This document shows positions 24,424 to 40,538 of a stretch of DNA of 64,000 bases, piece by piece. Made by a program: the position numbers and the translations under genes. Origin of the DNA: Eubacteriales bacterium (GTDB taxonomy: Bacteria; Bacillota; Clostridia; Lachnospirales; Lachnospiraceae); contig JAUNHC010000005.1 in assembly GCA_030524175.1 (NCBI GenBank), forward strand, positions 1 to 64,000, read 5' to 3'. The notes under the pieces are model-generated. The model searched no databases and was not told where the DNA came from. It was given only the letters and a program-made list of their open reading frames with translations. How positions within the stretch are numbered: position 1 is the stretch's first letter; the number at the start of each line of letters is the position of its first letter.

Positions 24424-24436
24424 ATAGATCTCCTCC

Positions 24437-25360
24437 TTATCGTTCACCTGTACCTGTCATTTTCAGGAAATAGTCTTCCAATGATTCAGTATTCTGGACA
24501 ATATAATCAAGAGGAACGCCGCCTTCTGTAAGAGTCCTGGTCAGCTCCGCTACTGTGGAAGCATCTTCATATACACGGATTTTCTCACCGTCAAATATCT
24601 TAAAGTTCTCTGTATGCAGCTTCTCAGTAAGGAGATAGGCTGCCTTTTTCACTTCTGATGTGCCTATTTCTATATAATTCAGATTCTGCTTTTTAATATC
24701 CGCCATGGAAATCTCCTGTATCATTTTTCCATGATCAATAAAACCAATGGTATCAGCAATAGGCTCCACCTCGGACAAAATATGGCTGGACATAAGAACT
24801 GTCATACCATATTCCCGGCTGAGCATTTTCAGGAGATCTCTCACCTGTTTGATCCCTGCCGGGTCAAGGCCGTTGGCCGGCTCATCCAGTATGAGAAGCT
24901 CCGGTTTGGTCAGGATTGCCCTTGCAAGACCCAGACGCTGCTTCATACCAAGGGAATATTTTTTAACCATCTGGGCTGCCGCTGACCCAAGCCCCAGAAG
25001 CTCCAGCGCATTCTTTACCGCATCCGGGCTGTAATACCCCATATACTCACAATGGAGTTCCAGATTTTTCTTACCGCTTAAACGGTCATAAAAAACCGGA
25101 AACTCTATGATACTTGCCATTCTTTTAAAAACATCGCAGGAATCCGGCCGCAGCGGCTCCCCAAACAGTTCAACAGTTCCAAAGTCCGGCTTCCACAGAT
25201 TTGTAAGGAGCTTCATGGTAGTTGTTTTTCCTGCACCGTTAGGGCCGAGAAAGCCGTAAATTTCCCCCTTCTTTACATGAAGGTTCAGCCCTGACACCAA
25301 TTCTTTGCCTTTGATGGTTTTTGTAAGGTCGTTAGTCTGTATAGTAAGATCCAATTTCAT
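24437..25360 (-). CDS. ABC exporter ATP-binding protein (BcrA-like)
   Basis: A 307-residue nucleotide-binding subunit. Walker A is GPNGAGKTTTMK (about residues 38-49), the signature is YSLGMKQRLGLA, Walker B is LLILDEPANGLDP and the switch His is in SSHILSE. The C-terminal 90-residue extension (VKKAAYLLTEKLHTENFK) is typical of the drug-exporter/BcrA subgroup. By homology it exports peptide antibiotics or similar toxins, or protects against them. It lies between the small membrane protein and the permease. Confidence 0.92.
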   Translation of the reverse strand: MKLDLTIQTNDLTKTIKGKELVSGLNLHVKKGEIYGFLGPNGAGKTTTMKLLTNLWKPDFGTVELFGEPLRPDSCDVFKRMASIIEFPVFYDRLSGKKNLELHCEYMGYYSPDAVKNALELLGLGSAAAQMVKKYSLGMKQRLGLARAILTKPELLILDEPANGLDPAGIKQVRDLLKMLSREYGMTVLMSSHILSEVEPIADTIGFIDHGKMIQEISMADIKKQNLNYIEIGTSEVKKAAYLLTEKLHTENFKIFDGEKIRVYEDASTVAELTRTLTEGGVPLDYIVQNTESLEDYFLKMTGTGER

Positions 25361-25395
25361 TCCTCCCTGGGATTCTTTTTATTTTCCTGCTGTTT

Positions 25396-25596
25396 TCACT
25401 TCTGCCTGAACAGTGACCCCTTGAACTTTTTCACTTTAAGATATGTTTTTTCCGGCAAAGCTCCCAGCAATTCAAAGACAATGGAAAATCCCAAAAGACC
25501 TCCCATGATCAGCTCAGGAATGTCAATAAATTGTTTTACGGTCAGCGTAAGAGCGAAAGTCAGCAATCCAATACTTAATTCTTTTCTCATAATCAT
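25396..25596 (-). CDS. small membrane protein of the ABC exporter operon
   Basis: A 66-residue protein from the ATG at 25596, behind AAGGAG; the longer frame from 25662 is unlikely. It has two hydrophobic segments (ELSIGLLTFALTLTVKQFID and ELIMGGLLGFSIVFELLGAL) and a basic tail (LKVKKFKGSLFRQK). No family recognised. Position directly before the ATPase suggests an accessory subunit or leader membrane protein of the exporter. Confidence 0.7.
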   Translation of the reverse strand: MIMRKELSIGLLTFALTLTVKQFIDIPELIMGGLLGFSIVFELLGALPEKTYLKVKKFKGSLFRQK

Positions 25597-25648
25597 TTTC
25601 TCCTTATCTTCTCTGTCTCCGGGCCGTACCCGATCAATGCACCAGCCC

Positions 25649-25691
25649 TCTGAGACTTTCACTATAAATGATTATAACATCTCAGACTTTC
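25649..25691 (-). promoter_or_regulatory. ABC operon promoter with paired direct repeats
   Basis: A TATAAT box on the minus strand (25671-25676) has no good -35 partner. It lies between two direct repeats, TCTGAGACTTTC (25649-25660) and TCTCAGACTTTC (25680-25691), 31 bases apart (three helical turns). A weak -35 plus paired sites suggests control by the adjacent OmpR-type response regulator. Confidence 0.5.
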
Positions 25692-25783
25692 GAAACTCTT
25701 GCCTAATTCTTACAAATTTCTTTCGCAGCTTACTTCCCTGCTGCCCGAAGGTATTCCTCTGCCCCCGGTATCCCCTCAGTACC

Positions 25784-26722
25784 TTAATACTTCATCAGCG
25801 GCATACAGACCGTAAAAACGGTAAATTCTCCCGGAACACTTTGTACTTCAACCCTTCCGCCCATCTTATCCGCCAGGCTCTTCACAATGGTAAGCCCCAG
25901 TCCGTTCCCCTGCATCTCCCGGTTGCGGGAGTCTTCCATTGTATAGAGCCTTTCAAAAATGTGCTCCTGGTACCCCCTGGCAATTCCCTTTCCGTGGTCT
26001 GTGATTTTGATCACCCCATAATCTTCCTCACTGTCCAGGGAAATCCCCAGGTATTTTCCATCACTGCCGTAACGCAGAGCGTTAGAGATCAGATTAAATA
26101 ATATCCGGTCCAAGGCGCAGCCGTTTCCGTAAGTATACAGTTTATCTTCAGGAATATTGATTTCCACCTGAAACTCTTTTTCCTGGAGGATCTGGTAAAA
26201 GTCAAGAATATTTCTCCGGCAGGCTTCATTAAGTTCCACCTTCTCCATCTGAAGAGGCGCATCGCCTGCCTCCAGTTTTGCCAGTGAAAAAAACTGGTTC
26301 ATCATGTCCATAACCTGTGCAGCCTTTAATCTCACCTTGGCGATAAGAGGGCTGGCGTTCTCTTCCATTTCCATGATTTCCAGATATCCCATGATCACGG
26401 TCAAGGGAGTCTTCATATCGTGGGAAATATTTGACAGCATTTTCCGAAACCCGGTTTCTGTCCGGATAAACTCTGCTTTCCGCCGCTGTCTGTCCTCCAG
26501 TACAGCATTAATGCTGCTGATCAGTTCTTTCATTTCCCTGGTGTCAGTAAAGGACATTACCTTTTCCTCTGTATTCTCTGCAAGGATATGCTGTAATTTC
26601 CTACTGATATCTCGCAGATTTCCGGTGATCTTCCTTTTGTACGACCAGGCTTTCAGCCATCCTGCTGCTGCCAAAACAATAAATACAACCAGCAGTACCC
26701 AGAACAATACCTTCTCATTCAT
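25784..26722 (-). CDS. sensor histidine kinase (exporter-linked)
   Basis: A 312-residue kinase with one N-terminal membrane helix (VLFWVLLVVFIVLAAAGWLK) and no extracytosolic sensor domain. The phospho-acceptor region is SNISHDMKTPLTVIMGY. The ATPase boxes are NLISNALRYG (N), ITDHGKGIA (G1) and GNGLGLTIVKSLADKMGG (G2). The minimal sensor resembles kinases that sense through a partner exporter. Its ATG overlaps the response-regulator stop as ATGA. Confidence 0.92.
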   Translation of the reverse strand: MNEKVLFWVLLVVFIVLAAAGWLKAWSYKRKITGNLRDISRKLQHILAENTEEKVMSFTDTREMKELISSINAVLEDRQRRKAEFIRTETGFRKMLSNISHDMKTPLTVIMGYLEIMEMEENASPLIAKVRLKAAQVMDMMNQFFSLAKLEAGDAPLQMEKVELNEACRRNILDFYQILQEKEFQVEINIPEDKLYTYGNGCALDRILFNLISNALRYGSDGKYLGISLDSEEDYGVIKITDHGKGIARGYQEHIFERLYTMEDSRNREMQGNGLGLTIVKSLADKMGGRVEVQSVPGEFTVFTVCMPLMKY

Positions 26723-27414
26723 ATGATCTCTCCCAATTTATACCCGATCCCCCAGACTGTGACCACATATCTTGGGCTTCTGGGATTGTCCTCAATTTTA
26801 TTCCTCAGCCTGCTGATATGTACATTCACCGCATTTTCATCACCACAGTAAGCATCCTGCCATACATTGGCATAAATCTGTTCTTTTGTATAAACCTTCT
26901 TAGGATTCTGGGCCAGCAGCTTAAGGATTTCGAATTCCTTTGCCGTCAGTTCCAGATTTATACCGTCTCTGCAGACAGAATAATCATCGAGATTCAGGGT
27001 CAGTTCTCCAATGGTGACCGTACCTTTCCCCTTGTCCTCTTCTCTGGCTGCATAAAGGGTGCTGCGCCGTATATTAGCCTTAATACGGGCGGAAAGCTCC
27101 GTGACAGAGAACGGCTTTGTGATATAATCATCAGCCCCCAGGCCTAACCCCAGTGATTTGTCAGAATCACTGTCCTTCGCCGAAACTATCAGGATAGGAA
27201 CTGTACTTTTTTCCCGGATTTTTCCCATGACCTCCATACCGCTCAGCTTTGGTATCATCAGATCAAGAAGAACAAGATCAAAGCTCTCTTCTTGAAATTT
27301 CTGCAGCGCCTCCAGCCCGTCATACGCAGGAGTTATCACAAAATTCTCAGCCGTGAGATATCCCTCAAGCATAGCACTGATTTCCTTATCGTCTTCAACT
27401 AATAATAACCGCAT
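26719..27414 (-). CDS. OmpR/PhoB family response regulator
   Basis: A 231-residue regulator. The receiver domain has the acidic pair VEDD, the phospho-acceptor Asp in VLLDLMIPKLSG, the Thr/Ser position IVSA and Lys in ITKPF. The C-terminal winged helix includes LTAKEFEILKLLAQNPKKVY and RLRNKIEDNPRSPRYVVTVW. The ATG at 27414 follows AGGGAGGA; the frame from 27435 is longer but lacks a site. Likely target: the ABC exporter promoter 1 kb downstream. Confidence 0.94.
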   Translation of the reverse strand: MRLLLVEDDKEISAMLEGYLTAENFVITPAYDGLEALQKFQEESFDLVLLDLMIPKLSGMEVMGKIREKSTVPILIVSAKDSDSDKSLGLGLGADDYITKPFSVTELSARIKANIRRSTLYAAREEDKGKGTVTIGELTLNLDDYSVCRDGINLELTAKEFEILKLLAQNPKKVYTKEQIYANVWQDAYCGDENAVNVHISRLRNKIEDNPRSPRYVVTVWGIGYKLGEII

Positions 27415-27566
27415 GTGGTTCCTCCCTGATTCCAATGTAAAAATCCGGGACCGTAATATCTATGTCCCTGCTTTGGATCAACATATTTTCTTCAAAACAT
27501 TGTATCATGTTTATAGGAGAAAACCAATCGTTACTGTACGCAAGGCCATACACTTAAAAAGGCAAA

Positions 27567-27616
27567 AAGGCAATGTAAACTTCAGGCTCAGTGCTGCCCG
27601 AGGTTTACATTGCCTT
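27567..27616 (-). terminator. terminator of the surface-polymer operon
   Basis: A 14-bp stem (AAGGCAATGTAAAC at 27567-27580 with its complement at 27603-27616) is followed by T tracts on both strands. It lies 48 bases past the phosphatase stop. Confidence 0.92.
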
Positions 27617-27663: not shown

Positions 27664-29535
27664 TTATTTTGTCATTCTGCAGGAATCAATTTTCTTTCCT
27701 TCCTCCAGATCATAAGTGGATATCACCAAAGATTTCTCTGTGACAGACACGGAAGTCATAACCGGAATCTCTTTATCAAGGAAAAAAGCATCATAGTCAA
27801 TTTCTTCTTTGTTTTTTTCATAATATTTGTTTCCTGTAGAAGATCCTCCTGTCAGGTACAGAACCTCTCCGGTATTCTTTTTTCCCCCTGTTGTGCCTGT
27901 GGGTTCAAGGCCCTTCATATAACAGGTTCTTGTGTAGCTGTGGTCATGGCCTGCCAGAACCAGATCCACACCATATTGGGAAAATACAGGTGCAAGCTGT
28001 TTCCTGAGTCTTATGACAGACTCATCATATGCGTGAGAGCCTGCGCTGAACAAGGAGTAATGCATAGTCACCACTACCCAGTCTGCCGGATGGTCCTGAA
28101 TTTCTTTCCGGAGGAATTCTGCCTGGTCCTCCGGCCCGTCATTAAATAGATCAAGGGCCACAAACAGTACATTCTTGTACATAAAGCTGTATTCCATTCC
28201 TCCCTGTCCGTCCCTGCGGAATTGTTTTTCATAAAGATTATTCTGTACCTCGTGATTACCCACATTCACAGCCACAGGCAGATGCTTGAGAATCTCCGGT
28301 CTGCGGAATTCAAGAAATTCAAGTCTTGCATCATCCTCATCAGAGCTGTCCGTCTGATCACCCGCCGTGATAAGAAATGCAGCGTCAGGAACCAGTGTAC
28401 TGCTTTTCTCCAGTGCTTTTTCCCACATTACACCGTCCGCAGTCCTCTCATCCGCCCCGATCTGAGGATCACCGGAGAAAAGGAATGTGAAATCGTCTCC
28501 TTCTTCTGCTCCATCAAAGGTATAACGCTCGGATATATCCTGAGAACCAAGTCTTCTGATCCTGTATACATATTCCTTGCCTGCACTCAGAGGTTTTAAT
28601 TCTGCAGTATAGCAGTATGCCCCCTTTGCTTCACCTTTCTGCCTGCCCATAAGAGATACTGCATACGTTTCTGTTTCAGTGTTTTCATGTCTCAGTGCAT
28701 ACTGAAGCTCAAACGCCCCCTTCTCTTCTGTATACCAGTTGACCCTGACGCTCTTCTCACTTTCTCCCACTTCGAGGATCAATCCGGAAGTATCTATTTC
28801 TTCTTCCCCCTGAACCTGGCTCTGCCCGGTCAACGAAGTGAAATCAAAGAATATGTCAGAGCCGGAGGCATAGTTCTGATGCACCTCCACAGCTACAGTA
28901 TTTTTACCTCTCTTCAGTACAGAAGTATCTTTTATGATAAATTTCTCAGACCTTGGGCTGGAAACAGGTTCCTTTGCACCATAAGCCGTAAGCCGCTCAT
29001 ATCCTCCGTCCGGGTTATTCCCGGCCCACACCAATTCCCCGTTTATATAGATCAATGCAGCGTCATCGAATTCCACTTCTCCTGACAATGTACCGATGCT
29101 GTCGGGATTGGCTATGATAAGTTCTGTGCGGAACAGATAAACAGGGCTGGAGGTATCATCGGCTTCATACTGGACGAGAAGATTATTGGGGGCGTTGCCT
29201 TTTCCCATTTCCTTCCGTTCCCCGTTTTTTGCCCCGAAAGAACCGGACGCTTCCTTCCATCCGGACGCATCAAATTTATTTTCTGTCCATTTTGTACTGT
29301 CACCTGATCCTGCAAATTCCTCCTGCTCTTCGTCCAGGTATTTCCACACTGTCTTTCCCGATGAGATCAATGTGACTTTTCCGCTGTCATTAAGCGCAGG
29401 AAGATCTGTCTTTCCGTTTCGGCCATAACTTCCCTGATCCACGGATGCCATATAGAATACAAGAATAAGCAGAAGAACACCGCCGATCACAGAAGCAATT
29501 CTGAGTAAAATATTTTTGCTGAAATTTCTTCCCAT
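27664..29535 (-). CDS. purple acid phosphatase-like metallophosphoesterase, membrane-anchored
   Basis: A 623-residue exported enzyme. An N-terminal hydrophobic anchor (IASVIGGVLLLILVFYMASV) is followed by a jelly-roll-like domain (about 50-230) and an Fn3-like domain (about 245-340). A calcineurin-type phosphoesterase domain completes it. Metal motifs: SGDPQIG, TAGDQTDSSDED, VNVGNHE, MHYSLFS and AGHDHSYTRTC, the set of purple acid phosphatases. The first metal motif reads D-x-Q rather than D-x-H/G. Last gene of the polymer operon, 11 bases after the GT2 gene. It may remove phosphate from, or release, the surface product. Confidence 0.88.
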   Translation of the reverse strand: MGRNFSKNILLRIASVIGGVLLLILVFYMASVDQGSYGRNGKTDLPALNDSGKVTLISSGKTVWKYLDEEQEEFAGSGDSTKWTENKFDASGWKEASGSFGAKNGERKEMGKGNAPNNLLVQYEADDTSSPVYLFRTELIIANPDSIGTLSGEVEFDDAALIYINGELVWAGNNPDGGYERLTAYGAKEPVSSPRSEKFIIKDTSVLKRGKNTVAVEVHQNYASGSDIFFDFTSLTGQSQVQGEEEIDTSGLILEVGESEKSVRVNWYTEEKGAFELQYALRHENTETETYAVSLMGRQKGEAKGAYCYTAELKPLSAGKEYVYRIRRLGSQDISERYTFDGAEEGDDFTFLFSGDPQIGADERTADGVMWEKALEKSSTLVPDAAFLITAGDQTDSSDEDDARLEFLEFRRPEILKHLPVAVNVGNHEVQNNLYEKQFRRDGQGGMEYSFMYKNVLFVALDLFNDGPEDQAEFLRKEIQDHPADWVVVTMHYSLFSAGSHAYDESVIRLRKQLAPVFSQYGVDLVLAGHDHSYTRTCYMKGLEPTGTTGGKKNTGEVLYLTGGSSTGNKYYEKNKEEIDYDAFFLDKEIPVMTSVSVTEKSLVISTYDLEEGKKIDSCRMTK

Positions 29536-29546
29536 ACCTCACCTCT

Positions 29547-30950
29547 CTATTCCCTGTTGTGCTGGTAACGTTCCTTTTCTCCCCAGACATCCTTGTTCTT
29601 CTTATAACCCAGCAACGCATTTACACGTACGATCATCAGTATAAAACGCAGTCCCACCAGTTCGAATCCGCTCAGCAGAATTGCTTTTATCCCGTCCCTG
29701 AAGGTAATATGAAGCTGCTGGGTATGGATCCTGCTGAAAAATGCCACCAATGTGAGCGTACACCCAAATAGCGCATAAACCCCAAAGAAAAGTATCATAA
29801 AAGACATATTGATCAAATTAGCCCAGTAGGACAGGATAATTGTAAACAGACCGAAGATTTCAATATAAGGGGACAACAGCTCATAAATCCAGAAATACAG
29901 GAACGAAACCGTCCCCATGATCCCGTACTCTTTTCTGCCCACCGCCGCCTTATATTTCGTCAGGCTTTCATATAACCCTATATGCCATCTCCGGCGCTGC
30001 CTTGCAAGATCCGGAAGATTGCCGGGTGCCTGGCTCCAGCACACAGCCGCAGGCGCATACCTGATCCTGTAGTCAATATGGTTCAGCCTGCAGAAAGCAT
30101 GGAGCTTCACCACCAGTTCCATATCCTCACCCATTGTGGTGTTGTCATATCCCCCGGCAAGCACTACCATATTTTTCTGGAACAGACCGAATGCTCCCGA
30201 TATGATCAGATTCCCGTTAAAGCTGTCCATGAAAATTCTGGAAGCAAGAAAGGAACGGTCATATTCCAGCACTTGCAGCGCCACAATAAGCTTCTTGGGA
30301 AGACTGTAATCCTGCACCTTGCCGTCAACCAGTTTTATACCGTTTGATATACGCACCTGACCGCCGCAGGCAACCGTCCGGTTATCCTCCAGCACAGGTT
30401 TGGCAATCTCATACAAAGAGTCTCTCTGAAGCATGGAATCTGCATCCATACATATAAAATAAGGGTAACGGCAAATATTAATTCCCATATTTAAAGTATC
30501 GGCCTTACCCCCGTTTTCCTTCATCACAAGAGTAAGCTGGATACCGCCATGCCTTGCTTCATAGACAGCCAGTTCCTTCTTGCATGGGATCTGCTTTCTC
30601 ACAGGCCTGTCAATCTTATACATGTGAAAATAGTCAATGACACGTTTGGCAGTCTCATCCTCCGATCCGTCATCCACTATGACGATCTCATACAGCTTAT
30701 AGTCCTGCTTCAGCAGTGTACACACGGTATCCACGACGGTAACCTGTTCATTGTGGGCCGGCACGATGATGCTGATAGGGATGTAAAATTCCTGATGAAG
30801 GCTGTTCTTAAGCTTCTCATTGCGCCGCTCCGTATAAAGGCGGTTAGATCCCCACAAAACAGACAGAAAGAGAAAACTGCTGTACCCGATGAGGTAAACA
30901 ACAAAGAATACATCAACACCAAACAGGAATATCTTAATTGCATCCATCAT
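29547..30950 (-). CDS. processive family 2 glycosyltransferase (membrane)
   Basis: A 467-residue synthase of the cellulose/hyaluronan/poly-GlcNAc type. It has an N-terminal membrane segment (about 10-33), the GT2 catalytic domain, and four C-terminal helices. Catalytic residues are all visible: VDDGSEDET (about 92-100), DAD (169-171), GED (274-276) and QRRRW (318-322), the processivity motif. It should polymerise a nucleotide sugar on the cytosolic side and export the chain. Its start overlaps the HEAT-protein gene by 17 bases, so the two are coupled. The sugar is not determinable from sequence. Confidence 0.92.
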   Translation of the reverse strand: MMDAIKIFLFGVDVFFVVYLIGYSSFLFLSVLWGSNRLYTERRNEKLKNSLHQEFYIPISIIVPAHNEQVTVVDTVCTLLKQDYKLYEIVIVDDGSEDETAKRVIDYFHMYKIDRPVRKQIPCKKELAVYEARHGGIQLTLVMKENGGKADTLNMGINICRYPYFICMDADSMLQRDSLYEIAKPVLEDNRTVACGGQVRISNGIKLVDGKVQDYSLPKKLIVALQVLEYDRSFLASRIFMDSFNGNLIISGAFGLFQKNMVVLAGGYDNTTMGEDMELVVKLHAFCRLNHIDYRIRYAPAAVCWSQAPGNLPDLARQRRRWHIGLYESLTKYKAAVGRKEYGIMGTVSFLYFWIYELLSPYIEIFGLFTIILSYWANLINMSFMILFFGVYALFGCTLTLVAFFSRIHTQQLHITFRDGIKAILLSGFELVGLRFILMIVRVNALLGYKKNKDVWGEKERYQHNRE

Positions 30951-32040
30951 TCCGGCATTCCTCCTTCCTCCGTTCCTGCTTGTACCGGATCATTTCCATG
31001 GCGTATTTGTCACTGCGCAGCAGCTCATCCATAACAAACTCATCCCCGGCAGTTTTAAGAAGAGAATCCGATGCGTTGCTGCGGACATACCAGGAGGTGC
31101 TGTGCATTGCCTCGTCCAATGCATGGACTGTATCCTGTGACGGATAATTTTCCAAAGCCGATGCCGCCAGAGCCGGAAACTCCCAGTCATCCACTTTCCA
31201 ATCCCTCACCAATTTCTGCAGGTACTGCGCAGCAGGTTCATACTTGTGTCTCCGCAGATACCTGATCACTGCAAATTTCACCTCCCGGTCTGTCTCCGGA
31301 AAAACCAGGAGCTTCAGAAGCCGTTCCCCAAAACTGTCAACAGAAAGTCTCATAAAATTTATAAATGCCGTCTGGTAATAAGGGGTGAATTTATCCCATT
31401 CCCGGAACAGGCATTCTGCAAGTTCTTCCTTATTTCCTGCGAAACCTGCAAGCCCGTCTGTGACCAGCTTTTGGCTGTGGTCTATGCCATGGCGCTGCAT
31501 TATTTTATATGCCTTGACTGTAAGCTCCGGGCTTCCTGCCTTATAAAGTGCTTTAAGAGCATTTTCCCTGCAGTAAATGGAGTGCTCGCAGATAAGCTGA
31601 AGCATATATCTTACAATTGCGTCTTCTTCTGAATTTCCGCAGAGCTTATTCTGCCACACAACATATGCATAATAAGCCTCCTCCATAACACTCTTTTTCA
31701 GATACCTGCTCCCTATATGTATAAAAACAGGACGCACACTGCCAAACCATGTTTCTGTCTCTTTGCCTTCAGAACAAATCATATCTATTGTCTCCTGAAA
31801 TGCCTCCAGGCCTGAGACATGGGAGAGCCGTCTTGTCAGCCCTTTTATCTGCTTATCAGTCATACTCTCCTCTTCTGTGAGTTTGTCCAGATAAGCCCTC
31901 CACATTTTCGTCCTGAAAGGATTCCTGATGTCGCTTATCCTTCTGCGGCCTGTATAAGCCAGATTAAACAGAAGCAGGCAGGCACATAGTGCCAGATAAA
32001 CATAAATAAGCCTGTCAACGCGAATTATCAATTGCACCAC
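30934..32040 (-). CDS. membrane-anchored HEAT-repeat protein
   Basis: A 368-residue protein with an N-terminal membrane helix (LIYVYLALCACLLLFNLAYT) followed by helical HEAT-like repeats, for example FAVIRYLRRHKYEPAAQYLQ, PALAASALENYPSQDTVHAL and STSWYVRSNASDSLLKTAGD. Such scaffolds often sit beside GT2 synthases and may bind the synthase. The start is uncertain: GTG at 32040 within GAGGTG, or a TTG 9 bases further in. It lies 6 bases after the hydrolase-like gene and overlaps the GT2 gene. Confidence 0.78.
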   Translation of the reverse strand: MVQLIIRVDRLIYVYLALCACLLLFNLAYTGRRRISDIRNPFRTKMWRAYLDKLTEEESMTDKQIKGLTRRLSHVSGLEAFQETIDMICSEGKETETWFGSVRPVFIHIGSRYLKKSVMEEAYYAYVVWQNKLCGNSEEDAIVRYMLQLICEHSIYCRENALKALYKAGSPELTVKAYKIMQRHGIDHSQKLVTDGLAGFAGNKEELAECLFREWDKFTPYYQTAFINFMRLSVDSFGERLLKLLVFPETDREVKFAVIRYLRRHKYEPAAQYLQKLVRDWKVDDWEFPALAASALENYPSQDTVHALDEAMHSTSWYVRSNASDSLLKTAGDEFVMDELLRSDKYAMEMIRYKQERRKEECRNDGCN

Positions 32041-32046
32041 CTCTTT

Positions 32047-34236
32047 TTAGTTCAGCAGATTTTTTTCGGCAAGTTTCTTCTCCATCCATATCTCCTGCAA
32101 GTCATAATATCCCTGTTTCAAACGCTCATGGCTGGTGGGATTGTTCCCCCAACCTTCCAGTGCTATTTCTCCCATCTCAATCCTGTCTGCCGTATTGCCA
32201 AGCTTTCCCACTCCTGCATACATCCTGTCGATTTTCAGCCGTTCAATACCATAGTGTTCATAATAATCATCGTGGATCACCATTTCTGATGGATTATAAA
32301 AATTCAAAAGCAGCCATGGCAGCCTGATTTCGATCTCATCTCCCTGGATGATAAAGTCTGCAAGAGAATTAAAGTCAGGACTTTCCGGATTTCCGTTTCC
32401 GTACGTAAGATTTCCTGTATTAAAGGTTTCCCCTATATCCCAGCCCGTATTTTCCACCTCATCATGAGGGTCGTTAGGCACCTGCATCATCATACGGATT
32501 TCCACAAAATGATCTGTATCCTTATCAGGCTCATTGAGATATGCATCCTGGAGATAAGCGCGGTGGGAGTACATTGCCCGTAATGCCTCATATCTCTCCT
32601 GTACCAGGATCCTGCTGTTTTCCCTGCCGTCTATGATAATAAGGAAATCCGATGCCCTGGCAAATTCCCCCTCCTTTTCTTCCCAGGTGGTACTCCCTGT
32701 CTTCGGTGTAGTGTCAACAGGAATATACAATACATCATTCTCCGGGTCATAGGAATCTTTATGGACTCTGAAATATACGTATTTCTCATCGTACTTGGAC
32801 CAAAGAGACATCCCCCTGTCCTCCATGATCTTGTCTTTCTCTGTCCATTCAGATACGTCACCGTCCACATAGCACACGCTTTCCGTCTCTCCGGGATCAA
32901 AGGAAAGAATGCCGAAATACTGCTCATTTGTCTGGTAATCACTCCAGAAAGCTGTTTTTGTCAGATCCGTATATGCCATAGTATTCCATGTTCTTTTAAA
33001 CCATTCATCCTGCCAGGTAAAAGCTACGGAGCCGGCACAGCCGGCGGACATGATATCCTTATAACAGCTTACCAGGGCTTCTCCCTGCTCCTTCTCTGAC
33101 ATCCCTCCCTGTGCACGCCCAAGGCCTCTTTCGTCCTGGGCCCGTCCCCTTGATGAGGGAACTCCGTATTCCGCGATCACTACAGGCATGGTATGATGAT
33201 CATTGATTAATTTCAGATATGCCCTATAGGAATTATAAATACCATTCTCGTCCACATAACTCTCCTTGTCCTTGACTTTCTTACCCAGACTGTCAAGAAA
33301 GCCAAGATAATCCGGATAGTAAGGGTAAATATGGTAAGAAGCGAACTGCCCGGACAGAAATTTATCTGTTGTCCTGATATGCTCTACATCAACCTTGGCA
33401 AATTTACGGAAATAGTATTCCACAAGCTCATCCCAGTCCAGCGGGTCTGTGGTCGGCCAGTTGCTGAAGGCCACCAGCCTCTGCTGCTTGTATCTGACTG
33501 TCTCATACTCAATGATCCGGTCCCCCACCATGGCAAGCATGGCCTCAAAGGGAGATGCCTCCTCTGTGGTATACATATATTTGCCCTGATAAGAATTTCT
33601 TGTATTCTCCATATGGTTAGTAAATGCAACTGTGGTGTCTTCCCATTCCACACCGAGAATATAACCAAGGCACCAGGAAGACACATCCTTGTTGTAAGTT
33701 CCCTTTCCCAGATCCACACCAAGGGAAAACGTCTTATTACCGTGAAGGATATCCACCAGTGTTCTGGAATCCTCCACCATAGTATCTGCAAATTCACTGT
33801 CATAAGCATCCCTGTGGGAATTCTGTACATAGTCATTTACCCATAGCCCATGAAGGAAATACAATGGGTCTTCATTGTCATGATTGTACTCCCATATGGC
33901 ATTATAGAAGGTATCGTTCTGGATTGTATAGATCCGGATACAGTTTGCCCCCATTTCCTGAATTTGTCTGAACCATCTGAGATATGTCTCCTTGTCAATG
34001 GCATAGTCTGTGGCAAAATGCCCGGGGATCCCCACCCCCATATTTACCCCTCTGATTTCGAAAGGCTTTAGCCCCTGCCCTGTATCAACAAGGATATCTT
34101 TACCTTTCACTGCTGTGAAGGATTGTACCGGCTTATCAAACTGCAGGTCAATAAACAGCCCGAACCTTCCGGAAAGTCCCCACCAGCATATAAACAGTGT
34201 AATAATGACCCCGCAGAAAATCAGAAACTTTTTCAT
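32047..34236 (-). CDS. membrane-anchored TIM-barrel glycoside hydrolase-like protein
   Basis: A 729-residue protein with an N-terminal anchor (FLIFCGVIITLFICWWG). Residues about 55-400 look like a GH2/GH5-superfamily barrel: FEIRGVNMGVGIPG, GANCIRIYTIQND, CLGYILGVEWE and PVVIAEYGVPSSRG. E356 in AEYG is the likely nucleophile, and E197 or E199 a possible acid. The C-terminal 300 residues form beta-rich domains (YVDGDVSEWTEKDKIMEDRG) like DOMON/carbohydrate-binding folds. No EC number can be given. It is embedded among CotH, HEAT and GT2 genes, so a role in trimming or transferring the polymer is inferred. Confidence 0.72.
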   Translation of the reverse strand: MKKFLIFCGVIITLFICWWGLSGRFGLFIDLQFDKPVQSFTAVKGKDILVDTGQGLKPFEIRGVNMGVGIPGHFATDYAIDKETYLRWFRQIQEMGANCIRIYTIQNDTFYNAIWEYNHDNEDPLYFLHGLWVNDYVQNSHRDAYDSEFADTMVEDSRTLVDILHGNKTFSLGVDLGKGTYNKDVSSWCLGYILGVEWEDTTVAFTNHMENTRNSYQGKYMYTTEEASPFEAMLAMVGDRIIEYETVRYKQQRLVAFSNWPTTDPLDWDELVEYYFRKFAKVDVEHIRTTDKFLSGQFASYHIYPYYPDYLGFLDSLGKKVKDKESYVDENGIYNSYRAYLKLINDHHTMPVVIAEYGVPSSRGRAQDERGLGRAQGGMSEKEQGEALVSCYKDIMSAGCAGSVAFTWQDEWFKRTWNTMAYTDLTKTAFWSDYQTNEQYFGILSFDPGETESVCYVDGDVSEWTEKDKIMEDRGMSLWSKYDEKYVYFRVHKDSYDPENDVLYIPVDTTPKTGSTTWEEKEGEFARASDFLIIIDGRENSRILVQERYEALRAMYSHRAYLQDAYLNEPDKDTDHFVEIRMMMQVPNDPHDEVENTGWDIGETFNTGNLTYGNGNPESPDFNSLADFIIQGDEIEIRLPWLLLNFYNPSEMVIHDDYYEHYGIERLKIDRMYAGVGKLGNTADRIEMGEIALEGWGNNPTSHERLKQGYYDLQEIWMEKKLAEKNLLN

Positions 34237-34263
34237 AGGCCTGCTCCTTCCTGTTGATCAATT

Positions 34264-35814
34264 CTAATGGTTGAATTTTTTGACGGCAGACTCGTGACCA
34301 TACTGCTTAAGCACTTCAATATGTTCATCCAGCCAGTTCAGCCTGTCTAGGAGAGTACTTTCCATCTGCTCCACTGCTGCCTCATAGCTCCGGGGATTCC
34401 TTTCATTCGGGTTCAGCTTCTTGTTCCACTGCAGGTTTTCCGGGTTAAAGGTATATCCCCACACTGCAAAGTTTCGTTCCACCGCACTCCCAAGATAAGC
34501 ATCTGTTTCCTTTATGTATTCCTTAAGATACTCATCACTTAAAATCCCTTTCCGCAGACTCCTGTATTCCTTGATGATCTGGTCTATAAAACTTTCTTCC
34601 TTCAGCATCATCCAGAACCAGGGAGACTGGATACAGAAAAAGCCGCTGATCTTATAATCGTCAAGCTCTGTGTTAACAGCCGCATTATCCAAAGAATTGT
34701 TAAAATCCCACACACATGGCTTAAACCTTCCGTTTATATCTTTATAGAAAAAGGTAGAACGGTTTCCCACATCATACTGCATGAACACTTCCATTATTAT
34801 AAAGTACCTCACAAATTCAGACACATCTGTTTTGACAGGATATCCATACCTGAGAGAATCATAATCAAAAGAATACAAGGCCTTTTCGAAGGCGCTCACA
34901 TCACGCTCTATATAATCCTTAAGCTCCGGCGTCAGGTTTAATTCTCCCGGATATACGATATCAAAGTACGCCCTTTCCCTGAGTATTGAGGCATATTTCG
35001 TAAAATTGTGCAATGCACTGGGAGGCTGGGAGTCATCATTATCCAGTTCAATAATATACCCTGTGACATTTCTGGTTTTATTGGGCTTCTCAATATCAAT
35101 CCTGCCTTTTCCCCTGCTCACAGTTTCCATACAGAGATAGAGGCCTTTATACTCTCCATTCAGCACCACCTCACAAAACCTTACATCCGGCGCATATTCC
35201 ATCAGTTCCCCGGAAAGATTCATAGCAAGATAATTGCGCATGAGGGTTTTATCCAGATATGGGCCGTTAAGCACCCATTCATGATGTTTTTCCATTCCCA
35301 TTACCGGAACATTCCGGTAATCCCCTGAATCATCTATCGTCTTTATGGAATAAGATTTTTTATCGAACCACCTGGAGGAATTTCCACGAACCCTTATTTT
35401 GATCAATGAGGAAAGTTCTTCTTCGTCCGTAATCTGATTATATCTGTCCTGATGATCGATCACTTTCATCTGGGCGTTGGTATAAGTGTCTCCGTCTGGT
35501 GCCAGCGTATATTCTGTGCCTTCTTCACTGTGATATGGCTCACCCGGTATTGTCTCCGGCGCATTGATCACCACAATTGGCAGTTGTGTTTTCAATTTTT
35601 CCACATCCACAGCATCCGGATCATAGGTGTACGCAGCTGCGTCAGTTTTACTGATGCAGCTTGTCCCGTCTGTAATCCCAAGCTCTGCTTCCCTTTTTCC
35701 TTCTATATGCTGGTGCACCCGGTACTGGGGCGTACTCCATTCCATCTGCGCCAGAACAGAGCCCAGGAAGGTCACCATGGCAATGACAGCTGCTGCGATT
35801 CTCTTTTTGCCCAT
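34264..35814 (-). CDS. CotH kinase family protein, secreted or membrane-anchored
   Basis: A 516-residue protein with an N-terminal signal or anchor (RIAAAVIAMVTFLGSVLAQ). The CotH domain covers about residues 135-400: IRVRGNSSRWFDKKSYSIK (nucleotide-binding strand and Lys), WVLNGPYLDKTLMRNYLA, GEYKGLYLCME, and PCVWDFNNSLDNA at about 367-377. Bacillus CotH phosphorylates spore-coat proteins. Here the metal-binding end of the active site reads WDFN where I would expect WDxD, so activity should not be assumed. It lies between DUF4956 and the hydrolase-like gene. Confidence 0.88.
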   Translation of the reverse strand: MGKKRIAAAVIAMVTFLGSVLAQMEWSTPQYRVHQHIEGKREAELGITDGTSCISKTDAAAYTYDPDAVDVEKLKTQLPIVVINAPETIPGEPYHSEEGTEYTLAPDGDTYTNAQMKVIDHQDRYNQITDEEELSSLIKIRVRGNSSRWFDKKSYSIKTIDDSGDYRNVPVMGMEKHHEWVLNGPYLDKTLMRNYLAMNLSGELMEYAPDVRFCEVVLNGEYKGLYLCMETVSRGKGRIDIEKPNKTRNVTGYIIELDNDDSQPPSALHNFTKYASILRERAYFDIVYPGELNLTPELKDYIERDVSAFEKALYSFDYDSLRYGYPVKTDVSEFVRYFIIMEVFMQYDVGNRSTFFYKDINGRFKPCVWDFNNSLDNAAVNTELDDYKISGFFCIQSPWFWMMLKEESFIDQIIKEYRSLRKGILSDEYLKEYIKETDAYLGSAVERNFAVWGYTFNPENLQWNKKLNPNERNPRSYEAAVEQMESTLLDRLNWLDEHIEVLKQYGHESAVKKFNH

Positions 35815-35834
35815 GATGCTCCTCCTCTCTTCAA

Positions 35835-36512
35835 TCAGCCGCTGATATCATCATCCTGGGATACAATGTTCACATACCGGATATGATCGATCTGATAGAG
35901 CTGATCCTCAATGCTGTCCACACCTTCGCTGGCTTTCATATATATTTTCCTGGGAATTTCGTAGATCAGCTCCACGGTATCCTCTGTTGTATTTTTCACC
36001 CTCAAGTCAGCCCTACGTTTAAAATATTCCGTAACCACCGACATGATCGTCATGTCTGTACTTCTTGCTCCCCGGATGATCAAGAGCATTCTGTTCTGAT
36101 TCTGTATCCGTCCCAGGATTAAAAGAATCACAAATACCATGGCACTTCCCGCTCCTGCTGTGGAATAATCTCCCACACCGCAGGCAAGTCCCACTACAAC
36201 TGCCCAGAATATGTAAATCGTGTCCCTGGAGTCCTTAATGGCTGTCCTGAAACGCACAATGGACAATGCACCTACCATACCAAGGGATAAAGCCACATTG
36301 TTTCCAATTGCTGTCATAACCAGTGTAGTGAGCACTGTCAGCACCACAAGGCTTACATTAAACCTGCTGCTGTACACTGTACCTGAATGTGCCAGGAAAT
36401 ACGACAGATAAATGACGAACCCCAATGCCGTAGCCACGATCAGCTGTGTGAGGATTCCTGTCATATTCAAAGATTCAACCTGTCGTATCAAATTTGATAA
36501 ATATCCACTCAT
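35835..36512 (-). CDS. DUF4956 family membrane protein
   Basis: A 225-residue protein with four hydrophobic segments (about residues 18-160) and a cytosolic C-terminal domain (LLIIRGARSTDMTIMSVVTE). The family motif MVGALSIVRFRTAIKDSRDT is clear. DUF4956 proteins are regular neighbours of VTC-domain polymerases and CotH kinases; no biochemical function is established. It lies 14 bases after the VTC gene, so the two are probably cotranslated partners. A membrane channel or anchor for VTC is an inference. Confidence 0.9.
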   Translation of the reverse strand: MSGYLSNLIRQVESLNMTGILTQLIVATALGFVIYLSYFLAHSGTVYSSRFNVSLVVLTVLTTLVMTAIGNNVALSLGMVGALSIVRFRTAIKDSRDTIYIFWAVVVGLACGVGDYSTAGAGSAMVFVILLILGRIQNQNRMLLIIRGARSTDMTIMSVVTEYFKRRADLRVKNTTEDTVELIYEIPRKIYMKASEGVDSIEDQLYQIDHIRYVNIVSQDDDISG

Positions 36513-36526
36513 ATCATTATCCCTCC

Positions 36527-37234
36527 TTAAACTCTATGTAGATTACCGCGGCTGACAGCCCTGCCCATGCAGTATTTGCTCACAGCCATTTCACTTTTCC
36601 CTGCTGTGCTCAACAGATTTTTCACATAGGAGAGCAGGAAACCATTGTATTTCACTTCCAGGACTGTTTTCCACGGTTCCTGGACAGGGTAAAGCAGCAG
36701 CTCAGGGCTAAACACTTCCCTGCAGCTTTCTGTAGCATTTATCTGGCTGTCAAAGGTGATACGGATAGAATTTTCCGGCAGTATAAATGCCCGTCTCCTG
36801 TATTCTATGATGGCCTTCGGCTGGTAAGTATGCATGTTAAGAATCCCATAAATTTCCCAGGCAAAAGGCTCCTTATACTCTGTCAGGGGACTGTAATCAC
36901 CTTCTGCAAGCTTCTGACCGTGCTCTCTGCTTATTTTCATGGACCGTTTTAACTGATAAGAGCCTTGCTTCTGCTTGATTTCAATCAATGCGAAATCATC
37001 TTCCGGGTTATATATCCGCAGCCTTATTTTTCTCCGCAGTTCTGTGCCCGCCATTTTCTCTTCGTAATCCCTGTTATTCAAAGTATCAAAATACAAAGAA
37101 CGGACCATATAACCATTTTCACCATTGTGCGGGTCTTCGTGTATTAACTTTTCCAGCCTGGACCCAAGCCTCAGCCCCTCTTGCGAGGATATCAGATACT
37201 TCTTTTCCTGGCGGAGCACATTCCGAATCTCCAT
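36527..37234 (-). CDS. VTC domain polyphosphate polymerase-like protein
   Basis: A 235-residue tunnel-fold (TTM) protein of the VTC family. The family's charged tunnel residues are visible: RQEKKYLIS, RSLYFDT (45-51), ELRRKIRLRIY (65-75), ALIEIKQKQ (82-90), RRRAFILPENSIRITFD, and LEVKYNGF. In yeast Vtc4 this domain makes polyphosphate from ATP. No SPX domain is present. The ATG at 37234 follows GGGAGG. It lies 41 bases after the sensor kinase gene and next to DUF4956. Either a polyphosphate product or phosphate transfer onto a surface polymer is possible. Confidence 0.9.
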   Translation of the reverse strand: MEIRNVLRQEKKYLISSQEGLRLGSRLEKLIHEDPHNGENGYMVRSLYFDTLNNRDYEEKMAGTELRRKIRLRIYNPEDDFALIEIKQKQGSYQLKRSMKISREHGQKLAEGDYSPLTEYKEPFAWEIYGILNMHTYQPKAIIEYRRRAFILPENSIRITFDSQINATESCREVFSPELLLYPVQEPWKTVLEVKYNGFLLSYVKNLLSTAGKSEMAVSKYCMGRAVSRGNLHRV

Positions 37235-37275
37235 CCTGTCATCCCTCCCAACCTTATGTAAACACAGCGGTAAAC

Positions 37276-38577
37276 CTATTCCCGGGGAATAAGAAGGAGG
37301 ACGGAACTCTTATACATATTCTCCTCCTGCTCAAACCTCACACCTCCATTGTATCGCTCTGCCACCGCTTTTACAGAAGTGAGGCCCACCCCCGGTTTTA
37401 TACTTCTCTGGTAATCTGCAGAATTATCCAATGTGATCACAATTTTATCTTCTGTGGAAGAGCACCTTGCATTGATAAACTTTTTGCCTGTTTTCTGCCT
37501 TTCTATACTTTGGGCCGCATTCTCAAAAAGATTTCCGAAAACAATACATAATTCAATATCAAGAATACCTACATTCTGGGGAAGCACAATTTTCACATCG
37601 ATTTCTGCCCCTGCTCTGCGGGCACGGGACAGATAATACCTTACAATCGTATCAACAGCATAGTTTTGGCATATTGACGGTTCGTTGTCATCAGGCAGGC
37701 TTTCCAGATATTCCTGAAGATATGCTTTCAGGCCCTCCATATCATTCCCTTCTGCATATCCTGTCAATACAGCCAGATGGTGGCGCATATCATGGCGGGC
37801 AGCCCGCACCTGTTCTATATTTCCCGTAAGCTGCCTGTAGTTTACAGCCTGCAGCCTGATCTGATGCTCCATATTGCGCATATCCGCTTCCAGCATTACC
37901 CTCTGGGAGGAATCCAAAACTGCCCGGAAAGTAATAAAATATGTAAGAAAACCGGTAAGCAGAACAAGGATATAAATAAAGAAGAATCCATCATTATTCA
38001 CATTGTCAATAAAGAATGACACATAAAATACATTTATGACCAAAAACAAAAATGGTGTAATACACAACATCCAGAAACTTCTGTCTTCCAGCTTATCCAC
38101 CGCCGGCTGAATCCCTGTTTTAAAAAAACGGTACAGCAGCGGAGATGTGACCAGAAGCATACCCAGTATGATGCAGCTATAAGGAACTGCCGCTATAACA
38201 TATTCATCCTCAGGATATATTTTCACGTTAATATATTTAGCCGTCACATTTATGATATTTGAGTATGCCTGGACTACCATAAAAATGTAGAGCAGCTTAG
38301 GCAGGGAAATATTAAAACTCAGGACATACTGCACCAGGTAAATAATATAAAACAGAATGATCACAATTGAATCCAGCCATTGCATATGGGGCAGGAAATG
38401 ATCTCTCAGCGAATAATAAGCAGCCACACACAATGTGGTGGCGGCAATCATTGTGATGATCGTCCGTTTCTGCACCTTCAGCTTAGGAAAAAACGGAACA
38501 CAGCACAAAAGATAACAGGGCAAATTAATAAGAAAGCAAAAAACAAATATCCTCAAACCATCTCCCATAAACCTCAC
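37276..38577 (-). CDS. AgrC-like GHKL sensor histidine kinase
   Basis: A 433-residue kinase with about six membrane helices in the first 220 residues, then a GHKL kinase core. The phospho-acceptor motif is AARHDMRHHLAVLTGY. The ATP-binding N box is NLFENAAQSI and the G box is PGVGLTSVKAVAERYNGG. This is the class that pairs with LytTR regulators, often for peptide quorum sensing. No AgrB/AgrD-like genes are in the window, so the signal is unknown. It lies 9 bases after its regulator and 41 bases before the VTC gene. Confidence 0.92.
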   Translation of the reverse strand: MRFMGDGLRIFVFCFLINLPCYLLCCVPFFPKLKVQKRTIITMIAATTLCVAAYYSLRDHFLPHMQWLDSIVIILFYIIYLVQYVLSFNISLPKLLYIFMVVQAYSNIINVTAKYINVKIYPEDEYVIAAVPYSCIILGMLLVTSPLLYRFFKTGIQPAVDKLEDRSFWMLCITPFLFLVINVFYVSFFIDNVNNDGFFFIYILVLLTGFLTYFITFRAVLDSSQRVMLEADMRNMEHQIRLQAVNYRQLTGNIEQVRAARHDMRHHLAVLTGYAEGNDMEGLKAYLQEYLESLPDDNEPSICQNYAVDTIVRYYLSRARRAGAEIDVKIVLPQNVGILDIELCIVFGNLFENAAQSIERQKTGKKFINARCSSTEDKIVITLDNSADYQRSIKPGVGLTSVKAVAERYNGGVRFEQEENMYKSSVLLLIPRE

Positions 38578-38586
38578 ACCCTCATC

Positions 38587-39309
38587 TCAAAAATCCTGAC
38601 GGGATTTTTCAAAATAGTAGTTTTCAAATTTAAGCTTCATAGCTGCCCGCTCTTCCCGGCGTACAGGTACAGAAGAACCATCTGCCAAAATAAAGTTATA
38701 CCCTGAAATAGACGATACATAATCAAGATTCACAAGAAAACTACGGTGACACCGCAGAAACCGTAAATCTTTAAGCTTCTCTTCCAGGTCCCCCAGGCGC
38801 AGATAACTTTTAAGCACTCCGTCCTCAGTGTGGATCAGGCAATACCTGTTCTGGAATTCCACGTAAATAATCTTTGAAAACAGAATTTTTCTGATTTCTC
38901 TGTCCACACTTAACTCTATGTATCTTTCAGCTTTTCCTGTATATCTTAAGCATCGGTTGAGAGCAATCTCCACATTTTGGTATATGAGAGGCTTGAGCAG
39001 ATAATGAACTGCCCCAAGCTGAAATCCTTCCGCCATAAAATCCGGACTTACAGTGGTAAATACAACTGCAGCGTTCCTGTCTTTTTTGAGAATTTTATCC
39101 GCTAATTCCACCCCGTTTATTCCCTGCATGTAAATATCCAGAAAATTAATAGGACATGTTTTCCCCTTTTCTATGAAATCCAACAACTGTTCTCCGCTTC
39201 CGAAGGTCACAACCCTGTAGAACAGCTGATATTTTTTCACAGCCTTATAAACATATTCTGCCAGTATTTTTCTTTCTTTTTCATCGTCATCACATATAGA
39301 AATATACAT
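38587..39309 (-). CDS. LytTR family response regulator
   Basis: A 240-residue regulator. The receiver domain begins MYISICDDDEKERK with the phospho-acceptor Asp in NFLDIYMQGINGVE and Lys in YLLKPL. The C-terminal LytTR DNA-binding domain includes FLRCHRSFLVNLDYVSSISG. The ATG at 39309 follows GAGGAG; a longer frame from 39381 runs back across the promoter and is rejected. First gene of the polymer operon, so it probably controls the genes behind it. Targets of LytTR proteins are usually paired 9-bp repeats; I did not find a convincing pair upstream. Confidence 0.92.
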   Translation of the reverse strand: MYISICDDDEKERKILAEYVYKAVKKYQLFYRVVTFGSGEQLLDFIEKGKTCPINFLDIYMQGINGVELADKILKKDRNAAVVFTTVSPDFMAEGFQLGAVHYLLKPLIYQNVEIALNRCLRYTGKAERYIELSVDREIRKILFSKIIYVEFQNRYCLIHTEDGVLKSYLRLGDLEEKLKDLRFLRCHRSFLVNLDYVSSISGYNFILADGSSVPVRREERAAMKLKFENYYFEKSRQDF

Positions 39310-39381: not shown

Positions 39382-39454
39382 ATTGTTGAAAAACGCATAG
39401 GTTGATTCCCTTTTATAATACTATACTTATTGTATCCACATGAAAATCAAGGCA

Positions 39455-39499
39455 GAAAAAGAACCGCAACACCAGAAAAAGATTTCCCTGTGTTACGGT
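39455..39499 (-). terminator. terminator after the C39-like peptidase gene
   Basis: ACCGCAACAC (39463-39472) pairs with GTGTTACGGT (39490-39499) with one mismatch. On the minus strand TTCTTTTTC follows. Confidence 0.7.
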
Positions 39500-39521
39500 C
39501 TCTGAATTAAAGCTCTTTTAT

Positions 39522-40538
39522 TTAGTTATTGGAATAACTCCAGATTCCTTTAATCTGCGACAGTAAGGTATCAACATCCCAATGTCTGCTGCTGTTATTC
39601 TTACTGTTGGGATCATTCACTATAATGTAGCCGTCAGAATCAATGCCGGTAAGTACGATAAAATGGCCTGAATATGTAAAATCTCCGGGAGTCATGGAAC
39701 ATATCAGCGGCTGCCCGGCATACAGAGAATCAAAAATATAATCCGCAGAGATATATCCGCTTTCTGCTCTCAGGCCAAGGTTTTCGGCACCGGTGGTCAT
39801 CAGCTCCCATGACGTCCCCGTCTCAGGGACATAGTAGCCGGACTGGGCTGAAAACAACGCTACTTCATAAGGATTCCATTGTGTATTGCCGGTCAGCCCG
39901 CACACCACCATGGAGATACAGGTCGGGCCGCATCCGTCTACTGCCAGGAAATCATCCCCGTAAATTTTATATCCCCAGCGCTCATCCCATTGTATAAATA
40001 AAGGAATGGTACCTGCCTGCACTTCCCCTGATACGTCCATAGAATATTCTCTATCTTTATTCAAAGGATAGTTATCAACAAAATCAGACGCCTCCGGGTA
40101 CTTGCTCTTAAAATCCAGCAGACTTTGCGGAATCTCAATATTATCACCTTCCCTATATGTGACCAAACCGGCAGGGACAGCACTGTTGCTGTGATACAGA
40201 TAACCCACCACAGCACTGCAGGTAACTGCAAATAAGGGAAACAGGACAGATGCATTCAATCTGTATTCCTGCCGAATCTGAAGTGCCGGTACAGTCTCTG
40301 ATTCCGGAACATCCGCACTCCTGCCGGAAACACGCCGGGAATGGCTGCGCCTCTTACGCTTCAGATGCCTTGATATCAAACGGCAAAAGCATAAAAACGC
40401 AGCAAATAAAAGACAGACAGGTATGATCCCGTCTTCTGTGATCATATTAGAATATCCAAGAAATAATATAATACATAATAAAAGTATAAGGCAAATCCCT
40501 GCTAATAAGCAGCTTCTCAATATCTTTCGTATTTTCAT
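39522..40538 (-). CDS. C39-like peptidase domain membrane protein
   Basis: A 338-residue protein. Two N-terminal membrane helices (about 10-55), a basic cytosolic loop and a third helix (VLFPLFAVTCSAVVGYLYHS) precede an extracytosolic peptidase C39-like domain. The Cys is in DGCGPTCISMV, the His in YSGHFIVLTGIDSDGY and the Asp/Asn in VNDPNSKN. Unlike C39 domains of bacteriocin exporters, no ABC transporter is attached. Substrate unknown. It is a separate transcription unit directly upstream of the polymer operon. Confidence 0.85.
   Translation of the reverse strand: MKIRKILRSCLLAGICLILLLCIILFLGYSNMITEDGIIPVCLLFAAFLCFCRLISRHLKRKRRSHSRRVSGRSADVPESETVPALQIRQEYRLNASVLFPLFAVTCSAVVGYLYHSNSAVPAGLVTYREGDNIEIPQSLLDFKSKYPEASDFVDNYPLNKDREYSMDVSGEVQAGTIPLFIQWDERWGYKIYGDDFLAVDGCGPTCISMVVCGLTGNTQWNPYEVALFSAQSGYYVPETGTSWELMTTGAENLGLRAESGYISADYIFDSLYAGQPLICSMTPGDFTYSGHFIVLTGIDSDGYIIVNDPNSKNNSSRHWDVDTLLSQIKGIWSYSNN

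Follow-up and report, generated by a model that had tools for sequence, protein, structure and literature searches.

We found that the predicted nine-gene minus-strand operon at positions 27664–39309 of a 64,000-nucleotide stretch from a Lachnospiraceae genome (Eubacteriales bacterium, NCBI GenBank assembly GCA_030524175.1, contig JAUNHC010000005.1, positions 1 to 64,000; hereafter the window) contains a conserved unit of six genes, VTC–DUF4956–CotH–g6–HEAT–GT2, accompanied by replaceable local additions, a LytTR sensor pair and a phosphatase. The six genes encode a VTC-type polyphosphate (polyP) polymerase domain, a DUF4956/MgtC-like membrane protein, a CotH-type kinase, a protein of 729 amino acids (aa) here called g6, a HEAT-repeat protein and a processive family 2 glycosyltransferase (GT2). 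The unit divides into a synthase core (g6–HEAT–GT2) and a VTC–DUF4956–CotH trio. This trio is a cassette found either by itself or combined with unrelated polysaccharide machineries, since stand-alone sets, Pel operons and GT2-core contexts all occur.

The conservation of the unit was followed through g6. Among the matches listed, at least 576 of 591 candidate genome stretches encode g6 relatives, and the 80 best-scoring of these were taken as named loci (L076, JALERH010000072.1, is the same record as the same-genus locus L022). All six genes were present in 65 of the 80, while the remaining 15 reach a contig end or, in L053, a run of 8,043 N. The gene order was the same in all 65 complete loci, with median gaps from VTC to GT2 of 17, 25, 21, 15 and −4 bases. 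Sixty-four of them were ordered by script; in the 65th, L086, the DUF4956 frame is called from a start before VTC and ends after VTC. Seven complete loci were flagged for order or for gaps above 300 bases, five of which carry insertions of 1.4 to 4.7 kb. Among the own genome and 60 relatives, g6 was found in nine of 61 genomes, and five of the 36 same-genus relatives were positive. Six of the eight relatives' loci are complete, with a single gene order; the other two run into contig ends. Matches to the kinase/regulator pair of the window, on the other hand, occurred in 2 of the 80 named loci and matches to its phosphatase in 3, two of them directly after GT2. The first-pass annotation had taken all nine genes as one system; as the sensor pair and the phosphatase do not recur in the loci of relatives, a nine-gene unit was rejected. 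The neighbourhood survey that it had proposed found the genes not scattered, and its idea that a conserved operon for a surface polymer pairs a processive GT2 with VTC, DUF4956 and CotH is supported by the 65 complete loci and by intact catalytic residues. These residues were counted in 72 complete loci (65 named, six from relatives and the window).

In a draw from the class, g6 was present in 22 of 293 Clostridia genomes, a patchy spread. We fetched 19 class-level g6 loci, at least two of which are already among the 80 (L169 is L061 and L176 is L093). The trio precedes g6, in the same order, in ten of these 19, and seven (L175, L177, L180, L181, L184, L185 and L186) harbour g6, HEAT and GT2, variously arranged, and no trio; L176 and L182 were undecidable. 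The synthase can therefore do without the cassette. Long forms of g6 (about 1,000 aa) were seen in the cassette-free cores of L177, L180, L185 and L186, and tandem g6 copies flank GT2 in L177 and L180.

The cassette was also approached from VTC, which is encoded in 48 of 299 phylum genomes, the own genome included. In 53 of 56 VTC loci from other genomes VTC adjoins DUF4956, and in one CotH lies between them; the two loci that lack DUF4956 comprise one at a contig start and one with a shortened VTC. CotH was found near VTC in 33 of the 56 loci, with weak scores in L131 and L152 (39 and 23 bits). A GT2 core accompanies VTC in one locus (L118) and a Pel operon in one (L134), where Pel was called with single PelF, PelG, DUF2194 and DUF4832 queries in fetched stretches of 6.6 to 19.9 kb, a test that distant or remote Pel genes could escape. 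Weak GT2 matches (33–56 bits) were seen in L150, L163 and L165. Thus the trio lies outside Pel in 32 of the 33 CotH-bearing VTC loci, mostly in another gene order: CotH follows DUF4956 in nearly all non-Pel trios and precedes VTC in Pel operons. In 31 of the 56 loci VTC has CotH yet neither Pel nor the GT2 core, and therefore the cassette may act on something other than a glycan. Four VTC loci lie in the own genome, namely the window operon, a Pel operon and two VTC–DUF4956–CotH sets. The Pel operon (L007, G000:C104:2000-21999) encodes two DUF2194 proteins, PelF, PelG in two open reading frames (ORFs), two CotH, VTC, DUF4956 and DUF4832. A divergent LytTR regulator/kinase pair beside it is related to the pair of the window (95 and 23 bits). 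The two further sets (L005, G000:C26; L006, G000:C102) have no recognised glycan synthase alongside.

The GT2 (29547–30950) matches Pfam Glycos_transf_2 (86 bits), and eight of nine tested positions, including the QxxRW and acidic motifs, are invariant in all 72 loci, the ninth being kept in 70. Its best NCBIfam match is PgaC_IcaA (133.6 bits, under the cut-off of 422.3), which was also the best match for the GT2 of three relatives scanned. A sequence search found a polysaccharide deacetylase in 7 of the 65 complete loci, and Pfam placed one inside or beside the operon in L059, L073, L103, L104, L108, L168 and L177. The one tested, from L168, is nearest to PgaB (130 bits, below the cut-off). 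The PgaC/IcaA-like GT2 and these deacetylases point to an N-acetylhexosamine polymer as the probable product of the core. The gene of the HEAT-repeat protein (30934–32040; Pfam HEAT_2, 42.7 bits) lies −343 to 36 bases from GT2 in the 65 loci, and in L185 HEAT_2 is fused to GT2, the one such case. The protein has an N-terminal membrane segment followed by five Lys/Arg residues, and its repeats are predicted to be cytosolic.

In a Pfam scan of the nine proteins, eight had a match and g6 (32047–34236) was the exception. It is N-terminally anchored and glycoside hydrolase (GH)-A-like, a possible glycosidase, and its profile weakly matches a GH2 catalytic domain protein (E 7e-4). The putative catalytic glutamates are kept in 70 (E197) and 71 (E356) of the 72 loci. 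That g6 is a degenerate glycosidase had been suggested by the first nine sequences and was not borne out by the 72 complete loci. By analogy with other exopolysaccharide operons, g6 may act as a hydrolase.

Within the cassette, VTC (36527–37234; Pfam VTC, 136 bits; no predicted membrane segment) matches yeast Vtc4 by profile (E 1e-10), with the conserved basic and acidic tunnel residues aligned. Fifteen of 18 tested positions are kept in all 72 loci, and R225, E144 and R146 in 71, 54 and 27, respectively. The DUF4956 protein (35835–36512; Pfam DUF4956, 51.6 bits) has at least three hydrophobic segments, and ten of 11 tested positions of its basic motif are invariant in the 72 loci. It also scores against MgtC (26.1 bits, below the cut-off), and a PDB search with DUF4956 gave no match. 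CotH (34264–35814; Pfam CotH, 190.7 bits) carries an N-terminal signal or anchor and matches Bacillus subtilis CotH (5jd9, E 5e-24); its active-site residues K152 and D370 are present in all 72 loci, D348 in 71 and E230 in 68. Judged by hydropathy, VTC is cytosolic, DUF4956 sits in the membrane and CotH lies outside. This arrangement suggests that polyP made by VTC may be moved outward for CotH. The own genome also encodes PPK1 and PPK2, which rule out VTC as the sole source of polyP; their presence suggests a special rather than a bulk polyP role for VTC.

We therefore tentatively favour, as an explanation that may well prove wrong, that the six core genes form an exopolysaccharide system of the synthase-dependent type, resembling that for poly-N-acetylglucosamine (PNAG) and equipped with a transferable cassette that exports polyP as phosphate source for extracellular phosphorylation by CotH. 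Together with HEAT, its cytosolic partner, GT2 would polymerise and extrude a glycan, probably N-acetylated and PNAG-like, and the anchored g6 would trim or bind it outside. VTC would make polyP from ATP at the inner face, DUF4956 would pass it through the membrane, and the exported CotH would transfer phosphate from it to the polymer or its surface attachment. The LytTR sensor pair is the likely switch in the window, while a cyclic di-GMP (c-di-GMP) enzyme, often with a DivIVA-like protein, adjoins the core in most relatives. A glycan phosphorylated or coupled to polyP, which the first-pass annotation had suggested, is still an inference. In a bolder version, which we consider rather unlikely in full, VTC–DUF4956 would be a vectorial polyP synthase–translocase in which DUF4956 takes the role of the eukaryotic VTC membrane domain and polyP instead of ATP feeds the outside CotH. 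The trio would then be a transferable envelope-phosphorylation cassette joined to at least two unrelated synthases (Pel and the PgaC-like GT2/HEAT), giving phosphorylated biofilm glycans in Gram-positive gut bacteria.

Several observations weigh against the PNAG-like, polyP-exporting explanation. The GT2 and the L168 deacetylase score under the PgaC and PgaB cut-offs, no deacetylase was found in the window operon, and the partial loci L022 and L026 have lost one and both putative catalytic glutamates of g6, respectively. The seven cores without a trio and the 31 CotH-bearing cassettes without either synthase uncouple the two modules, and no CotH was detected by profile in 23 of the 56 VTC loci. 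Response regulators and kinases are the commonest families flanking stand-alone cassettes (16 of 97 proteins each; this flank set, A12, took 97 of 113 neighbours). Finally, the passages on Streptococcus intermedius Pel in PMC12345266 report that deletion of VTC gave no aggregation defect. In favour of the explanation, aggregation in sputum medium fell there by more than 50% when CotH or DUF4956 was deleted, and the level of Pel shifted, with more Pel upon deletion of the DUF4956 homologue, which the authors name MgtC–ACT, and less upon deletion of CotH (PMC12345266).

These data fit in part with a different role for the cassette, to which we give a real if minority chance: the synthase works as proposed, CotH phosphorylates an exported protein (g6 or an anchor) with ATP, and VTC–DUF4956 acts as a regulator that senses phosphate or ATP and does not export polyP. 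The two-component genes beside stand-alone cassettes, the resemblance of DUF4956 to MgtC, which the name MgtC–ACT shares, and the opposite effects of the S. intermedius DUF4956 and CotH deletions, together with the lack of an aggregation effect for VTC, all speak for it, as does the description of CotH as a protein kinase (PMC7112168). Against this role, the polymerase-tunnel residues of VTC are kept in 72 loci, which is more than sensing requires. ATP is, moreover, scarce outside the cell. The same VTC residues would equally be expected if polyP were itself the end product, exported by VTC–DUF4956 alongside the glycan to form a matrix or capsule and attached to or capped on a surface protein by CotH. 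VTC–DUF4956 without CotH in 23 of 56 loci would suit such an arrangement, and Cthe_2159 carbohydrate-binding proteins, possibly a second type of partner, account for 13 of the 77 scanned flanking proteins there (set A10, which took 77 of 85 neighbours). However, export is so far a prediction, CotH has a kinase fold with intact kinase residues, and PPK1 and PPK2 already serve bulk polyP, though they are cytosolic as far as known; we regard polyP as an end product as improbable. A loose cluster without joint function, held together by chance and recent transfer, is very improbable. Its patchy spread (22 of 293 Clostridia genomes, five of 36 same-genus relatives) and horizontal transfer would be in line with it, but the single order in all 65 complete loci with their short median gaps is not, nor is the correlation of the pairwise distances of the six genes at 0.60–0.90 (species relatedness uncontrolled).

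The six-gene set had been listed before. The window has the six-gene order of the NELoc-2 type, as judged by published order and lengths and not by sequences. NELoc-2 appears in a 2010 Clostridium perfringens table that assigns it no function (PMC2879425), and the set recurs in passages of PMC5964661 and PMC11677781, likewise with no function assigned there. According to these passages a deacetylase occurs in 78% of NELoc-2-positive isolates (PMC11677781); two NELoc-2 genes are given as lower in vivo in an excerpt of PMC4983038, and the lines on the locus in PMC11426533 merely name it. In order and sizes the table resembles the window (VTC 230–232, membrane protein 222–226, CotH 497, hypothetical protein 685, HEAT 377 and GT2 466 aa), whereas VTC with its partner occurs twice, a resolvase is present, and a sigma factor replaces the LytTR pair. 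The annotation given for the partner is tubulin/FtsZ; from size and place it is presumed to be DUF4956, and the hypothetical protein to be g6. The first-pass annotation had called the system possibly undescribed, which fails for the gene set, listed as NELoc-2, and for the trio, known from Pel operons; it holds for function, as we found none assigned to the six-gene set in the open-licence literature searched by family and locus names.

VTC, DUF4956 and CotH are named as accessory genes of Gram-positive Pel operons in the relevant sections of PMC7112168 and PMC12345266. Like the window, these operons set the same three families beside a polysaccharide synthase, together with an anchored TIM-barrel hydrolase, a role that g6 may fill in the window. 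They differ in having PelF with PelG instead of GT2 with HEAT, a DUF4832-type hydrolase, and CotH before VTC; in the window CotH, VTC and DUF4956 lie side by side in an order that differs from the Pel locus. Neither PelF nor PelG was found among the nine genes of the window with Pfam and NCBIfam, and both are encoded at C104 of the same genome. In the part of PMC12345266 (2025) that bears on this, analyses fail to find the three-gene arrangement outside Pel. There is no contradiction with our loci if the exact gene order was meant, because Pel trios place CotH before VTC and the others nearly all place it after DUF4956. The core resembles the Pga/Ica PNAG systems in a GT2 nearest to PgaC/IcaA, a PgaB-like deacetylase in some relatives and c-di-GMP enzymes beside most relatives, and is unlike them in its sub-threshold scores, its HEAT partner, its VTC/DUF4956/CotH genes and the missing deacetylase of the window operon. 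The VTC catalytic domain is homologous to that of eukaryotic Vtc4, with basic residues aligned. In contrast to the eukaryotic VTC complex, it has no fused SPX or membrane domain, and the membrane partner is the separate DUF4956.

What is new here is a probable variant of synthase-dependent exopolysaccharide systems that carries a transferable cassette. With the trio outside Pel in nearly all CotH-bearing VTC loci, and joined to a second, unrelated synthase in at least 65 operons, a Pel oddity becomes a general cassette. If CotH indeed uses exported polyP, this would explain the activity of a surface kinase in surroundings poor in ATP, and the bacterial VTC/DUF4956 pair would gain a function. 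The gut is the source of many of the 80 named records, as isolates or as metagenome-assembled genomes. Given these sources and the at least 576 stretches that encode g6 relatives, the polymer may be widespread as a biofilm component in the gut.

The genes around the core differ by lineage. Sequence of 2.6 kb or more follows GT2 in 58 loci; an EAL gene was seen there in 48 of them and a DivIVA-like gene in 31 (both in 28), the phosphatase in two, and none of the three in five. In the flank alignments (A7, 26 of 29 short downstream ORFs, without L080, L091 and L096; A8, all 33 long ones; A9, 32 of 33 upstream ones, without L088), Pfam recognised DivIVA in 13 of the 26 short downstream proteins; among the 33 long ones, 29 had EAL and 13 SBP_bac_3, and 16 of the 32 upstream proteins had GGDEF. 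A GGDEF gene before the core or an EAL gene after it was seen in 37 of 42 loci with both flanks. The regulator is thus swapped between lineages, as c-di-GMP enzymes adjoin most loci, a sigma factor is found in C. perfringens and a LytTR pair in the window. No known c-di-GMP receptor domain was found with Pfam in the six core proteins of the window, and no LytTR box pairs were found upstream of the operon with a consensus for such boxes. The DivIVA-like coiled-coil protein (motif LKKGFFGYKKxSVYxYI; L035:14698-15201 and 25 others in A7) is encoded right after GT2 and is possibly a pole or septum tether for the synthase; a PDB search with this set returned unrelated coiled coils only. A further lipoprotein-like family of 300 aa (A11; motifs DVEPYL and VMNYD) has no Pfam family and resembles a barrel hydrolase, with one weak GH97 match in a PDB search (E 0.06). 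It lies upstream in L040 (6200–7108), L030, L031, L037, L044, L049 and L056, and downstream in L023 (16743–17627).

In a concatenated tree the nearest loci to the window are two from Holdemania (support 0.999), followed by Neglectibacter (1.0). The same-genus L023 and L024 are placed elsewhere, and L025 and Blautia parvula L040 fall within a wider clade of 11 (0.98). The simplest reading of this topology is that the operon may have been transferred between lineages. In the two Holdemania loci the phosphatase directly follows GT2 as in the window; in L028 it lies upstream of VTC, and in L024 an unrelated alkaline phosphatase follows GT2. As this phosphatase was not seen in most loci, it is weak evidence for a phosphorylated product.

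The remaining genes of the window operon are the local additions. The LytTR response regulator (38587–39309; Pfam LytTR 74 bits, Response_reg 48 bits) starts with ATG at 39309 in an ORF open to 39381. It is followed by the GHKL sensor kinase (37276–38577; Pfam HATPase_c_5), with about six N-terminal membrane segments by hydropathy, and at the other end by the exported purple-acid-phosphatase-like phosphoesterase (27664–29535; Pfam Metallophos 48.8 bits, Pur_ac_phosph_N 39.3 bits). From response regulator to phosphatase, the intergenic distances are 9, 41, 14, 20, 27, 6, −17 and 11 bases. The first-pass description of nine co-directional genes with small gaps or overlaps and a strong end terminator was confirmed by the ORF positions, these distances and folding. 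The intrinsic terminator (27560–27615, minus strand) is a hairpin of −29.5 kcal/mol (z −7.1) followed by TTTTT; it was seen by folding and is absent from the list of a terminator pattern scan. A second, terminator-like hairpin on the minus strand (39452–39506; −22.2 kcal/mol, z −5.4, T-rich tail) belongs to the preceding gene and lies between it and the response regulator, where it marks the upstream boundary. The assembly holding the window comprises 5.95 Mb in 119 contigs. Upstream (39522–40538), Pfam identified a C39-like peptidase with an N-terminal membrane part, and downstream (23713–27435) we recognised, by reading, an OmpR-type regulator, a sensor kinase and an ABC transporter.

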